Positions 31,290 through 62,943 of a stretch of 62,943 nt of DNA are shown here, piece after piece. Source of the stretch: an uncultured Mucispirillum sp. (lineage in GTDB: Bacteria; Chrysiogenota; Deferribacteres; Deferribacterales; Mucispirillaceae); the NCBI GenBank assembly GCA_944324495.1, contig CALUWN010000011.1:1-62943 (forward strand), given 5' to 3'. Below the pieces are notes generated by a model. It searched no databases and was not told where the DNA came from. It worked only from the letters and a program-made list of their open reading frames with translations. Both the position numbers and the translations under genes were made by a program. Within the stretch, counting starts at the first letter, position 1. Each line of letters begins with the position of its first letter.

Positions 31290-31985
31290 ATGAGTGATAA
31301 AATTAATATACTAATAATTGAAGACGAAATCAAAGTTGCAGAAACAATTAAGTCTTATTTGGAAAAAGAGGGCTTTAGTGCTTCTTTTGCTATTTTAGGC
31401 TCTGCTGCTGTAAACATTTTAAATGAGAAAACATTTAACTTGATTATTCTTGACCTTATGTTGCCAGATATGTCTGGTGAAGAAATATGCAAAATGGTTA
31501 GAAGAACAAGCGATGTACCTATTATTGTTTTAACGGCAAAAAGCAGTGAGGACTCTAAGGTGAACGTATTAAATACTGGTGCTGATGATTATCTTATTAA
31601 GCCAGTTTCCCCTAGAGAGCTTGTGGCAAGAGTAAAAGCAGTATTACGCCGTGCAGGGCTTTTTAGTGAGAATAGTGCCATGCATTATAATGACGGGCTT
31701 TCCATTGACTTTAACTCTAGGACAGTTAAGAAAAATGATGTGGAAATCACCCTTACTCCAAATGAGTATAAACTGCTGAAATTTTTAGCTCAGAACGCTG
31801 GCAGATATTTCTCTCGGGAGGATTTAATAGAAGGAGCAATAGGTGCTAAGTATGACGGCTATGATAGAGCAGTTGATTCTCACATTAAAAATCTGCGTCA
31901 AAAAATTGAGGATAACCCTAAAACACCTAAATATATTGTTACACAATACGGTGTTGGTTACAAGTTTGCTGGGACAAAAATATGA
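31290..31985 (+). CDS. OmpR-family response regulator
   Basis: 231 residues. The receiver domain (1-115) has the acidic pair 'IEDE', the phosphorylation site 'IILDLMLPD' (Asp55) and the conserved Lys in 'YLIKPVSP'. A C-terminal winged helix (about 135-230) has 'LTPNEYKLLKFLAQNAGRYFSREDL'. It is a DNA-binding output protein for the kinase that follows, with a four-base overlap (ATGA). I use ATG 31290; a TTG at 31254 in the same frame would add twelve non-conserved residues. The pair is divergent from the metal repressor and ATPase, which hints at a role in metal or envelope stress, but the signal is unknown. Confidence 0.9.
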   Translation: MSDKINILIIEDEIKVAETIKSYLEKEGFSASFAILGSAAVNILNEKTFNLIILDLMLPDMSGEEICKMVRRTSDVPIIVLTAKSSEDSKVNVLNTGADDYLIKPVSPRELVARVKAVLRRAGLFSENSAMHYNDGLSIDFNSRTVKKNDVEITLTPNEYKLLKFLAQNAGRYFSREDLIEGAIGAKYDGYDRAVDSHIKNLRQKIEDNPKTPKYIVTQYGVGYKFAGTKI

Positions 31986-33322
31986 AATTAAGCATTAAAA
32001 AGCAGTTTCTTTTGCTTTTTCTGCTTGTGATTATTGTATCATTAACTTTGCTCTCCTTTTTATTAAGAACAACGATTGATAGTTGTTTTTACGATTATAA
32101 ATGGGCAGAGCAAAGTAAGATATTTGATTTAATTGTTTCCCGCCTTGAAACTTATTATGCTGAGCATAATTCATGGGAAGGCTTTAATGGGAACGAGCTT
32201 GCAAAACTTGCCATGAAAGAAGGTTGTTATTTTACGTTAACAGATAATGAGGGCAACCTTATATGGACTTCAGAACATATTATTGATAACCAAAACACAA
32301 ACTATCAAATAGATAAATATTTCAGAAATATATATACAGTAAATTACCTTAACCAAATGAGAGGAAAAGTATATATTGGGCAGTTTACGGAAAAAATATA
32401 TACGCCTAACGATTTAAAATTCCAAGAGCAAGTTTTTTCATACATTTTAATATCTTTGCTTATTGCTCTGCTTTTATCACTGCCTTTTATTATGATACTT
32501 TCTTCAAGGCTTTCAACACCTATTTTATATTTACAAAAAGCAGCAGAAAATATGATAAAAGGTGATTTACACACAGAAATTCGTGCTCCTTCATCATCCT
32601 ATGAGATTATAAAACTTTCTGCCTCTATTGATAGATTAAGGAAATCTTTAGCTCAGCAGGAAGATTTAAGAAAACAACTCTCATCAAATATATCTCATGA
32701 ACTTAGAACGCCGCTTAATGTATTACAAAACCAGTTAGAAGCAATAATAGACGGTATATTTGAACCAACTCCAGAAAGATTAGACGGTATATTACAGGAA
32801 GTAATACGCCTTACAAGTTTAGTAGCAGAGCTTGAAAATATTTCAGCAATAGAATCAAGTGATTTTATACCAGAAATAAAAGATGTTAAACTTGCCCATG
32901 TGGTAGAAAATGTTTGCACCACTTTTGAAGCGGCATTTCAAAGAAAACATATTGCTCTTCATATGCAGATAAAAAAAGGCATCATCGTTAAAGCTCAGGA
33001 AGATAAACTAAAACAGCTTGTAATAAATATTATATCTAATGCTTTAAAATATACTGATAAGGGAAAAGTAACAGTAAAAACTTATATGTATAATAATGAC
33101 CATGCAGTTTTTGAAGTTAGTGATACTGGTGTTGGGCTAACAGAAGAAGATAAAGAAAAAATCTTTGAAAGGTTTTACAGGGTAGAAAAATCAAGAAATA
33201 GAAATACAGGTGGAGCAGGGCTTGGGCTTTCCATTGTAAAAAACATTGCCAATGCACACGGCTGGGTAATAGAAGTAGAAAGCGACGGAAAAACTGGCAC
33301 TACTTTTAGAGTGCATTTTTAG
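31982..33322 (+). CDS. Sensor histidine kinase
   Basis: 446 residues. There are two membrane helices (about 8-28 and 152-174), a periplasmic sensor of about 120 residues, and a HAMP linker (about 175-228). The phosphoacceptor region is 'NISHELRTPLNVL' (His239), and the ATPase domain has an N box ('LVINIISNALKYT'), 'VSDTGVGL' and 'GGAGLGLSIVKNI'. All catalytic motifs look intact. It phosphorylates the response regulator encoded just upstream. The periplasmic domain has one Cys and no clear metal-binding cluster, so the neighbouring metal exporter does not by itself prove metal sensing. Confidence 0.9.
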   Translation: MKLSIKKQFLLLFLLVIIVSLTLLSFLLRTTIDSCFYDYKWAEQSKIFDLIVSRLETYYAEHNSWEGFNGNELAKLAMKEGCYFTLTDNEGNLIWTSEHIIDNQNTNYQIDKYFRNIYTVNYLNQMRGKVYIGQFTEKIYTPNDLKFQEQVFSYILISLLIALLLSLPFIMILSSRLSTPILYLQKAAENMIKGDLHTEIRAPSSSYEIIKLSASIDRLRKSLAQQEDLRKQLSSNISHELRTPLNVLQNQLEAIIDGIFEPTPERLDGILQEVIRLTSLVAELENISAIESSDFIPEIKDVKLAHVVENVCTTFEAAFQRKHIALHMQIKKGIIVKAQEDKLKQLVINIISNALKYTDKGKVTVKTYMYNNDHAVFEVSDTGVGLTEEDKEKIFERFYRVEKSRNRNTGGAGLGLSIVKNIANAHGWVIEVESDGKTGTTFRVHF

Positions 33323-33335
33323 TAGAATATAGGCT

Positions 33336-33459
33336 TGGTTGAAAATACTCTAAACTGATATTTTCAACAGAAACTTTTCATACTGAGCAGAATGCGAAGT
33401 ATCTATTGTAGCTCTCATATTTTAAAGTTCTTTCGCTTATGCTCAAGAAGACATAGTAG
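33336..33459 (+). repeat. Hairpin repeat copy 1
   Basis: The unit has two parts. First, a perfect small hairpin with GTTGAAAATA (33338-33347) and TATTTTCAAC (33359-33368). Second, a longer imperfect hairpin in which CTGAGCAGAATGCGAAG pairs loosely with the later CTTTCGCTTATGCTCAAG, about 50 bases downstream. Both arms carry the same core (GAGC, a short gap, GCGAA) in opposite orientation, as in paired REP elements. The first hairpin could also end transcription of the kinase gene, but no T-run follows. Confidence 0.85.
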
Positions 33460-33495
33460 TGTTATAATAATCTATAAGAATATTGTAATACTATG

Positions 33496-33617
33496 TGGTT
33501 GAAAATACTCTAAACTAATATTTTCAACAGCAACTTTTCATACTGAGCGAATGCGAAGTATCTTTATGGCTCTTATATTTTAAAGTTCTTTCGCTTAACG
33601 CTCAAGAAGACATAGTA
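33496..33617 (+). repeat. Hairpin repeat copy 2
   Basis: This is nearly the same as copy 1 from the GTTGAAAATA hairpin (33498-33528) through the second hairpin, ending in CATAGTA. The core here is the regular form GAGCGAATGCGAAG, and the opposite arm reads CTTTCGCTTAACGCTCAAG. Differences from copy 1 are single bases and a short indel. Both arms keep pairing potential, so structure appears conserved. Confidence 0.85.
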
Positions 33618-33706
33618 CAGAAACTTTTCATACTGAGCAGAATGCGAAGTATCTTTTATAGCTCTTATATTTTAAAGTTCTTTCGCTTAACGCTCAAGAA
33701 GACATG
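33618..33706 (+). repeat. Hairpin repeat copy 3, lacking the first hairpin
   Basis: It begins at CAGAAACTTTTCATACTGAG, directly after copy 2, and ends in CAAGAAGACATG beside the GIY-YIG gene. The GTTGAAAATA hairpin is missing, so the second hairpin is a separable module. Confidence 0.82.
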
Positions 33707-33707
33707 T

Positions 33708-34070
33708 CTAGGAAGTAATAAAGTCATACAAATCAAGCCAGTTAGGGTTTATAGAATTTACCAGCGAGTTTTTAAAGGCTCTCTTTTTCTTTTTAATATA
33801 CTTCTCTCTTTCTAATGCATGATTTATTTCCTGATATATTTCAAAATATACAAGCTTATTACAATTATACTTATATGTAAAACTTTCTACATACTTTTCT
33901 TTATGCTGATGTATTCTTTTAATTAGATTGCTTGTAATCTCTGTATACAGCACACTATTAGTATAGTTTGTAACCATATAAATATAGTATTGATTACCAG
34001 TTCCTGCAATTTGTTTATCTGATAATTTAACTGAACTAAAATCTACTTTCATATAATTATTATAGTTCAT
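33708..34070 (-). CDS. GIY-YIG nuclease-domain protein with altered YIG motif
   Basis: 120 residues. The single domain starts at 'QYYIYMVTNYTNSVLYTEIT', where family members normally read a Tyr-x-Gly in the second half; here Glu44 replaces that Gly. The catalytic Arg ('LIKRIHQHK', Arg52) and the metal-binding Glu region ('EINHALEREKYIKKKKRA') are retained, so activity may be reduced rather than lost. About 25 extra residues precede the domain. Small GIY-YIG proteins like this are widespread, are often misnamed UvrC-like, and have no settled function. It sits between htrA and the hairpin repeats, its 3' end touching repeat copy 3. No good ribosome site is seen; ATG 34052 is an alternative start. 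Confidence 0.8.
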   Translation of the reverse strand: MNYNNYMKVDFSSVKLSDKQIAGTGNQYYIYMVTNYTNSVLYTEITSNLIKRIHQHKEKYVESFTYKYNCNKLVYFEIYQEINHALEREKYIKKKKRAFKNSLVNSINPNWLDLYDFITS

Positions 34071-34123
34071 AAGGAAGCCATAAAAATGACTTCCCTGTAT
34101 TTTAAATTAATATTATAGATATA

Positions 34124-35479
34124 TTACTTATTAAAAGCTATAAACCTTGAGCCACTGCGGGAAAGGATTTTAAAGGCTATTAAATCGCCTTTTTTCACTT
34201 TATCATAAGCTGCATAAAATTCGTTAGGGTTATTAATAGATTTTCTATTTACCCAAACTATTACATCACCCTGCCTAAGCCCTGCTGAATAAGCATTTGA
34301 TTTCGTATCAATATCTGTAATTACTACACCGCCTGTTACTCCAAGGCTAGAAGCATCATCACGGCTTAAATCAGTAACAGTAATATCGCCTTTAGGTTTT
34401 TTTGGTGATTTATTGCTGTAATTTCCTGCAACTTGACCTTCCACTGGTCTTTCACCTAAAGTTACAGTAATATTTTGCTGTTTAGAGTCCCTTATAACAG
34501 TAAGTACAACTTTATCATTTGGGCTTTTTGAGCCTATTATACCAACTAAAGTTCTTGAATCAGTTGCTTTTTTGCCGTCTACTGCTATTACTATATCGCC
34601 TGCTTTAAGCCCTGCTTTATCACCCGGCTCACCTTTTGAAACATCTGCTATTAATACACCTTTTGTATCATTAAGCCCAAAAGATTTTGCAAGTTTTTCA
34701 TCAAGTGGCTGCAAGGTAACACCTATCCATCCTCTAGTTACTTTACCTTGTTTTAATTTTGGGATAATATTTTTAAGCATATTTACAGGTACAGCAAACC
34801 CAAGCCCTTGGGCAGATTGAATAATAGCTGTATTAATACCTATTACTTCGCCATCCATATTTATAAGTGGGCCGCCAGAGTTACCCGGGTTAATTGATAC
34901 ATCTGTTTGTATAAAATTATCATACGGGCCATCACCTAAAACCCTGCCTTTAGCTGATAATATACCTGCTGTAACAGTACCACCAAGGCCAAGGGGGTTA
35001 CCAATAGCAACTACCCAGTCACCAATTTCTGCCTTATCTGAATCACCTAATAATATAGGTGTAATTGATGCACCCAATGTATCAATTTTTAAAAGTGCTA
35101 AATCTGTTAAAGGGTCTGTGCCTACTATTGTAGCTTTAAACTCCCTTTCATCTTGAAGTTTTACGATTATTTCTTCTGCACCTTCAATAACGTGGTTATT
35201 TGTAACAATATAACCGTTCATATCAATAATAAACCCAGAGCCTAATGCTGAAGATTTAAATTTTTGACCGCCACCATTACCATAGGGGTTACCACCGAAA
35301 AAACCACCAAAAAAATCATCAAAAAAAGGATCTATCTGACGTGTAACAGTTTTTGTTGTACTAATATTTACAACGCTTGGAGCTGCTTTTTTTACAACTG
35401 GTGCAAAACTTTCAGGCACTGCATAAGCATTAATAGCTAATGCTGCCATAAATACTACTAATAGAAATAATTTTTTCAT
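34124..35479 (-). CDS. htrA: Periplasmic serine protease HtrA/DegP family
   Basis: 451 residues with a signal peptide (to about residue 20), a trypsin-like domain and two PDZ domains (about 255-345 and 365-450). The catalytic triad is visible as His96 ('VTNNHVIEG'), Asp126 ('DPLTDLALL') and Ser201 ('NPGNSGGP'). A Gly/Phe/Asn-rich loop near residues 50-72 corresponds to the regulatory LA loop. DegP proteins degrade or refold misfolded envelope proteins. It is the last gene after rpoE, rseA and rseB, with a GGAGGA ribosome site 4 bases past its neighbour region, so it is probably a direct member of the sigma-E operon, as mucD is in Pseudomonas. Confidence 0.94.
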   Translation of the reverse strand: MKKLFLLVVFMAALAINAYAVPESFAPVVKKAAPSVVNISTTKTVTRQIDPFFDDFFGGFFGGNPYGNGGGQKFKSSALGSGFIIDMNGYIVTNNHVIEGAEEIIVKLQDEREFKATIVGTDPLTDLALLKIDTLGASITPILLGDSDKAEIGDWVVAIGNPLGLGGTVTAGILSAKGRVLGDGPYDNFIQTDVSINPGNSGGPLINMDGEVIGINTAIIQSAQGLGFAVPVNMLKNIIPKLKQGKVTRGWIGVTLQPLDEKLAKSFGLNDTKGVLIADVSKGEPGDKAGLKAGDIVIAVDGKKATDSRTLVGIIGSKSPNDKVVLTVIRDSKQQNITVTLGERPVEGQVAGNYSNKSPKKPKGDITVTDLSRDDASSLGVTGGVVITDIDTKSNAYSAGLRQGDVIVWVNRKSINNPNEFYAAYDKVKKGDLIAFKILSRSGSRFIAFNK

Positions 35480-62810: not shown

Positions 62811-62943
62811 TTAGAATATTTTTACAGCTAAATTATATTTTATCTGCTTCACCCCAATTTTTTTTCGCAACACCTTATGTCACCTTGATACTGAGCCATT
62901 AGGCAAAAAATCTTAAATATAATAAATACAAACACTCATAATA
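62811..62943. other. Window end with repeat fragments
   Basis: No gene start is visible. CTGCTTCACCCC (62844-62855) repeats the left arm of the hairpin at 66-77. Positions 62887-62914 (ATACTGAGC, then AGGCAAAAAATCTT) resemble a decayed copy of the hairpin repeat core at 33.3-33.7 kb. Confidence 0.45.

Follow-up and report, generated by a model that had tools for sequence, protein, structure and literature searches.

In the REP/RAYT systems (GTAG REPs and REPINs), short hairpins are dispersed over the genome, occur as inverted pairs, and flank the gene of an enzyme, the RAYT, which is a tyrosine transposase of the IS200/IS605 kind. A paper published in Nature Communications in 2025 reportedly describes the Ssn proteins as site-specific single-strand nucleases of the GIY-YIG type, and the Neisseria member, SsnA, is said to act on a repeated sequence, NTS, and to modulate transformation. 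The residues of the GIY-YIG motif with catalytic roles are a Tyr, the YIG sequence, an Arg, a Glu, and an Asn.

The CGTC-tagged REPs carry a CGTC or TGTC tag and stems of 8–9 bp, which almost always begin with AT, and are mostly arranged as head-to-head (HH) dimers; dRS3 of Neisseria is CGTC-1 (PMC3733652). According to this survey, these REPs have no associated transposase genes and apparently no dedicated transposase (Di Nocera 2013, PMC3733652), and the term “GIY-YIG” is absent from its text. A literature search that reached few of the subscription papers found no report linking GIY-YIG proteins to REP-like or dRS3 repeats; PMC9465073, whose passages were checked for such a link, was irrelevant.

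The window, which is the whole stretch of 62,943 nucleotides analyzed, is contig 11 of a 2.43-Mb genome. Between the genes for a histidine kinase (31982–33322, + strand) and an HtrA-like protease (34124–35479, − strand), both names being our reading of the translations, it contains a repeat tract (33367–33705) and a small nuclease gene (Table 1). As described in an earlier note on this DNA, the tract is composed of three direct tandem units (33367–33455, 33526–33613, and 33617–33705) with a GAGC..GCGAA core in both arms. The units agree pairwise at 81, 85, and 86 positions of a 91-column alignment. Each unit contains two inverted mini-hairpins with 22–23 bp between them, each with the GAGC..GCGAA interior. 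Arm 1 is on the + strand (TTCATACTGAGC..GCGAAGTATC, stem ATAC/GTAT) and arm 2 on the − strand (GTCTTCTTGAGC..GCGAAAGAAC, TGTC tag, stem TTCTT/AAGAA), and the tags face outwards, which is the HH order. Read as the “imperfect hairpin” of the earlier note, the whole unit was not unusually stable in DNA folding (z scores of −0.5, −0.4, and −1.8), and one long hairpin per unit was no better than shuffled sequences in two of the three units and marginal in the third. The unit is better read as two inverted mini-hairpins than as a single hairpin.

Table 1. Features of the repeat tract, the nuclease gene, and the distant repeat copy in the window.
Feature	Position	Strand	Evidence
Extra hairpin GTTGAAAATA..TATTTTCAAC before unit 1	33338..33368	+	repeat family D3
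Unit 1, arm 1 mini-hairpin (GAGC..GCGAA core, stem ATAC/GTAT)	33377..33403	+	consensus scan, unit alignment
Unit 1, arm 2 mini-hairpin (TGTC tag, stem TTCTT/AAGAA)	33427..33452	-	consensus scan, unit alignment
Unit 2, arm 1	33537..33562	+	consensus scan, unit alignment
Unit 2, arm 2	33585..33611	-	consensus scan, unit alignment
Unit 3, arm 1	33627..33653	+	consensus scan, unit alignment
Unit 3, arm 2	33677..33703	-	consensus scan, unit alignment
Small GIY-YIG nuclease gene (120 aa, with Glu as residue 44 instead of the YIG glycine)	33708..34070	-	ORF, PF01541, alignment, predicted fold
Decayed dispersed copy near contig end	62885..62912	+	4 mismatches to consensus

The extra hairpin located before unit 1 has a second copy before unit 2 (33498–33528) and is absent before unit 3. 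A tolerant scan of the window, which allowed up to 5 mismatches to the consensus, returned the six arms, the decayed copy near the contig end, and two further matches that are at chance level, with 8 shuffled windows yielding 0–2 matches each. Of the two dispersed decayed copies proposed before, the one near the end of the contig was therefore recovered and the motif at 17–28, at the contig edge, was not. A separate hairpin, GGAAGCC..ACTTCC (34073–34094), is located between the end of htrA and the start of the nuclease gene and is perhaps the htrA terminator.

The repeats of the window are downstream of genes and between convergent neighbors, a position that fits ordinary terminators or RNA-stabilizing hairpins. 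The coincidence with terminators that the earlier note had named as one result speaking against its proposal was not seen, since the three units contain no terminator-like site. The Rfam scan gave no family above the cut-off (the sole match, to a plant microRNA model, was below its own), so that terminators and known RNA families were rejected as the identity of the repeats. With the unremarkable folding energy of the units and with the gene tagged at either end at 39 of 77 related loci (see below), it is very improbable that these repeats are only terminators or RNA-stabilizing elements.

Comparison with the CGTC REPs reveals stems that begin with AT and HH dimers with the tags outside as common features; the arm order is HH in all three units. 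The stems of the GAG class, in contrast, are shorter than 8–9 bp: those of the window have 4–5 bp and an interior loop instead of 8–9 bp and a loop of 4–5 nt. The GTC tag at one end is partly shared: it is TGTC in arm 2 of the window units but degenerate in arm 1, which has TTTC in place of the usual tag; the further copies inspected in this genome possess TGTC.

The window protein is assigned to the GIY-YIG family by Pfam (PF01541, E = 3.8e-12), and the third repeat copy indeed touches its gene, with 4 bp between the tag of arm 2 (starting at 33703) and the stop codon. The best PDB matches of the predicted fold were UPF0213 (1zg2, E = 5.6e-3, also matched by sequence), then Slx1, and the N-terminal domain of UvrC, and we know of no repeat partner for these three. 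NCBIfam, PADLOC, and PHROGs provided no informative name. Homing endonuclease models did not match the window protein, the product of a stand-alone intergenic open reading frame, and the best match of its homologue from the congener G007, to TIGR01453, reached 17.8 bits at a cut-off of 56.

Another relative is the gonococcal homologue (38% identity, E = 5e-15), which sits among 16 GTCATTCCC..GGGAATC hairpins within 3.3 kb; this GIY-YIG gene among dRS3 repeats is presumably the Ssn/NTS pair. Both systems have a homologous, small, stand-alone GIY-YIG protein with a gene associated with repeated hairpins, which are of the GTCAT..ATC type at the gonococcal locus. They differ in that the window hairpins carry the GAGC..GCGAA interior on a short stem where the others have the dRS3 stem, and in that the window nuclease is without the YIG glycine. 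By homology, the window gene is placed with the putative Ssn family, with a catalytic motif that is not intact, and the partnership of nuclease and hairpin is probably of a kind already described in Ssn/NTS. With respect to the REP/RAYT systems, the dispersed short hairpins, the inverted pairs, and the enzyme gene flanked by them are shared, but the partner gene is a PF01541 gene and not a RAYT gene, and the tag is GTC.

In the window protein, Y31, Y42, R52, H56, E89, and N108 are retained, and the sequence is Y42-T-E44 where the relatives have Y-x-G. Residue 44 is Gly in 81 of 81 aligned other proteins, a figure skewed by the retrieval, in which one of two patterns demanded a G at this position. 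The catalytic motif is intact in the homologues of the two congeneric genomes G007 and G004. Departures from the family majority occurred at 14 sites only in the window protein and at 4 sites only in that of G007, and 79 of 80 outgroup members were nearer to the latter. The dN/dS ratio of the nuclease gene was 0.26 for the window and G007 versus 0.09 for G007 and G004 (Nei-Gojobori, with dS near saturation), while the corresponding comparisons of the neighboring kinase gave 0.12 and 0.08. In a maximum-likelihood tree of 81 proteins, the end branch of the window protein was 0.64, compared to a median of 0.28. The gene retains an open reading frame, and a sound fold is predicted for its product (mean pLDDT of 84). 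As supported by the lost glycine, the long branch, and the higher dN/dS ratio, the window copy is a fast-evolving remnant that is quite probably decaying, in agreement with the interpretation given to the Glu residue before. Recent relaxation is the simplest reading of this state; the protein may have lost its activity or may be a changed yet active enzyme. At three other loci (L123 and L137 of the 80 loci described next, and L071), an in-frame stop interrupts the part of the homologue that was matched, which indicates that decayed copies may exist elsewhere, too.

A profile from an alignment of 13 homologues was used to scan genome contigs, independently of the repeats, and gave at least 586 matching stretches, including at least 580 relatives. 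The best 80 of these at least 580 relatives were analyzed; according to their NCBI names they represent more than 20 phyla, with 11 loci lacking a phylum name. An inward-facing tag GTCATTC, GTCATCC, or GTCATTG, a set chosen after inspection of matches to a generic hairpin, was present within 160 bp of the gene in 106 of 157 flanks (three of the 160 being too short), compared with 3 of 146, 0 of 130, and 1 of 117 control windows at 1, 3, and 5 kb, respectively, or 4 of 393 in total. A tag facing away from the gene was found in 56 of the 157 flanks. Both flanks were complete at 77 loci; inward tags occurred on both sides of the gene at 39 of these, on a single side at 25, and on neither at 13. 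In the window, the repeats are on one side of the nuclease gene only. When tags up to 300 bp away were counted, the start of the tag was at a median of 73 bp from the gene on the upstream side (58 loci) and of 60 bp on the downstream side (60 loci).

Other measures of the repeats gave a similar distribution. The narrow motif GAGC N1-8 GCGAA occurred at 0.95 per kb within 100 bp of the gene versus 0.04–0.10 per kb beyond 300 bp, and at 13 of the 80 loci within 300 bp; the generic hairpin (GTCNTY, four pairs, ATC) occurred at 2.54 per kb within 100 bp versus about 0.03 per kb beyond 500 bp, and at 24 of the 80 loci within 300 bp. A motif-free search for 7-mers enriched beside the gene had TTGCGAG, TGCGAGG, GTCATTC, and their neighbors at the top. 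The stems covary: 12 of 18 distinct flank pairs, from 50 GAG-core copies near the gene at the 80 loci and at seven further loci picked by motif, form at least 4 bp, compared to a mean of 3.2 and a maximum of 8 with shuffled partners (1,000 shuffles). Strong and weak GIY-YIG relatives did not differ significantly (10 of 15 versus 2 of 7, p = 0.17). The proposal of the earlier note, in which a GIY-YIG nuclease takes the place of a RAYT as partner of a REP-like repeat, is supported by these flank tags and by the distribution of hairpin classes and the copy numbers given below, and the partnership of nuclease and hairpin is considered highly probable.

On plasmid p1 of Planktothrix agardhii (L239, 1492–1776), a GIY-YIG homologue with GTCAT hairpins has the gene of a type IIL restriction enzyme on one side and the DISARM gene drmA on the other.

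An association of this kind may also arise by hitchhiking, if intergenic spots rich in hairpins are prone to recombination and merely gather a promiscuous small gene. The hairpins are clustered, and the gene has been widely transferred, as judged from 33 changes of the host phylum on the nuclease tree, a figure without a shuffle comparison. The loci were sorted into the hairpin classes “GAG” (47 loci) and “CC” (23 loci), with labels defined after seeing the data and 10 unlabeled loci excluded, and mapped onto this tree, a quick maximum-likelihood tree of 81 proteins and 99 columns with many forks unresolved. The class required 3 changes on the 70 rows, compared to 19.5 on average and never fewer than 14 in 300 shuffles; an initial labeling by somewhat different criteria likewise required 3 changes. 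Both classes were found inside single phyla (7 GAG and 8 CC in Pseudomonadota, 5 and 5 in Bacteroidota). The class thus tracks the nuclease clade even within one phylum, as predicted for a specific recognition partner and not for hitchhiking, which also does not account for the preferred inward orientation of the tags (106 versus 56 of 157 flanks). Hitchhiking is accordingly improbable.

Fifty-nine relatives were scanned with two full-length patterns, GTCATTGCGAG..GCAATC and GTCATTCTGAG..AGAATC. Every genome that has a strong nuclease homologue (12 of 12) contained 5–74 copies, while any copy was present in 18 of the 47 others (Mann-Whitney p = 8e-7, in a test that ignores phylogeny). Many GTCATTGCGAG hairpins occurred without a strong homologue in G028 (91 copies, with a weak GIY-YIG match only) and in G039 and G040 (35 copies each, with no match); in these genomes, the gene may have been lost after the spread of the hairpins, or another partner may exist.

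In the genome of the window, the pattern CTGAGCN{1,9}GCGAAG had 13 matches, three in the window, nine of the type CTGAGCCTTTAGGCGAAG, several of them near contig ends, and one other, and the reversed control pattern had none. Among ten genomes of the genus, G007 contained 101 and G004 93 copies, and an intact homologue of the nuclease gene was found only in these two; the G004 match includes one in-frame stop upstream of the start, but its 114-aa reading frame is whole. Seven genomes without a detected gene had 1, 16, 15, 10, 2, 5, and 1 copies, with the gene's absence being uncertain because several of the assemblies are incomplete. A PF01541 search of the window's genome identified two genes, that of the window and a 616-aa open frame on contig 23, taken to be UvrC, so that most copies are dispersed and cannot be located beside a GIY-YIG gene. 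The expectation that repeats cluster at GIY-YIG genes thus held for the relatives, as seen from the flank tags and their control windows, but not for most copies within this genome: the link joins the repeat family to the gene and not each single copy to a gene.

Nine near-identical copies of GTCATTCTGAGCCTTTAGGCGAAGAATC exist in this genome, with the window positions 62846–62912 among the sites. Here, and at L040, L042, L045, L047, L058, L060, and L061 of G000, the copies are part of a longer repeated block, in which AAGGTGTT..ATGGGGGTGAAGCA or a similar sequence follows. Several of them are near contig ends, and this composite repeat may break the assembly. An inverted repeat at the start of the contig (63–108, TGCTTCACCCC..GGGGTGAAGCA) has an arm in common with the composite repeat.

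Single sites with and without the gene were compared next to the copy numbers. In G007 and G004, the nuclease gene adjoins a fliR-like gene; in G008, the counterpart of the upstream neighbor in G007 (84% identical) is separated from the fliR-like gene by a short intergenic region with no nuclease gene, and in the genome of the window the nuclease gene is located elsewhere and the fliR locus is without it. In another genus of the same order, two conserved genes have no hairpin between them in G019, a hairpin without the gene in G032, and a hairpin-gene-hairpins arrangement in G038, and in a further genus of that order the neighbors of the G026 gene match in G037, G039, and G042 without the gene (positions only). 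A hairpin-gene-hairpin block is present in two aligned Shinella records and absent from three others. These empty sites (G007/G008, Shinella, and G019/G032/G038) were not base-exact and had no target duplication, and they could have arisen through cassette loss just as well as through gain. Between G003 and G004, which are syntenic with about 85–95% identity depending on the block, a single hairpin site of G003 is represented in G004 by three tandem units of about 205 bp. The window's own locus yielded no clean empty site, with the DNA downstream of the histidine kinase gene varying among congeners, and for the Rhizobium plasmids no relative with both flanks but without the gene was among the matches listed.

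The locus is likely the remnant of a dedicated pair of an Ssn-like GIY-YIG nuclease and the short tagged hairpins recognized by it. The nuclease would be specific for sequence and structure and most likely act on a hairpin exposed as a single strand during replication, repair, or transformation, with a nick at or near the GTC tag; recognition, cutting, and the single-stranded substrate are what we infer from the association. Repair or recombination of the nicked ends would lead to hairpin pairs being copied, tandemly amplified, or lost, and a gene between two hairpins would at times be copied, amplified in tandem, or lost likewise. A pair with the tags outside and a short spacer, such as the three units of the window, would be the non-autonomous unit, and a hairpin pair with the nuclease gene as spacer the autonomous one. 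In the present genome, the nuclease lacks the YIG glycine and is evolving fast, and few copies are left. That the nuclease drives the mobility of the hairpins is a tentative suggestion, at slightly less than an even chance.

Alternatively, the partnership may exist without mobility. The nuclease would cut hairpins on incoming or exposed single-stranded DNA and thereby govern recombination or transformation, which is reportedly the role of SsnA/NTS in Neisseria, and the flanking copies would only autoregulate or mark the gene. The gonococcal homologue among dRS3 repeats fits this possibility, the dispersal of copies does not require the enzyme to have moved them, and neither a target duplication nor a base-exact insertion was seen at the compared sites. 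On the other hand, the copy number in the genus tracks the presence of the gene, tandem growth and the presence or absence of whole cassettes were observed, and the gene occupies different loci in congeners, so that a purely immobile partnership is possible but less likely than not.

Returning to the dedicated pair of nuclease and hairpins, it could be proposed, with reservation and as something not quite to be expected, that the CGTC-type REPs are the non-autonomous part of a mobile system with the GIY-YIG gene inside its own hairpin pair as the autonomous unit. Nuclease and hairpin class would have traveled together across most bacterial phyla, as a second, independent solution of the REP/RAYT kind.

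What moves the CGTC REPs, a widespread short bacterial repeat, was left open by the 2013 survey. The flank statistics and the match of class and clade name a candidate that can be tested with small proteins and oligonucleotides, and they supply a large stock of ready pairs for putative site-specific single-strand nucleases, to which the window adds a decaying member. The series of copy numbers in the genus, from 101 and 93 to 13 and to 16–1, suggests how such a system spreads and fades.
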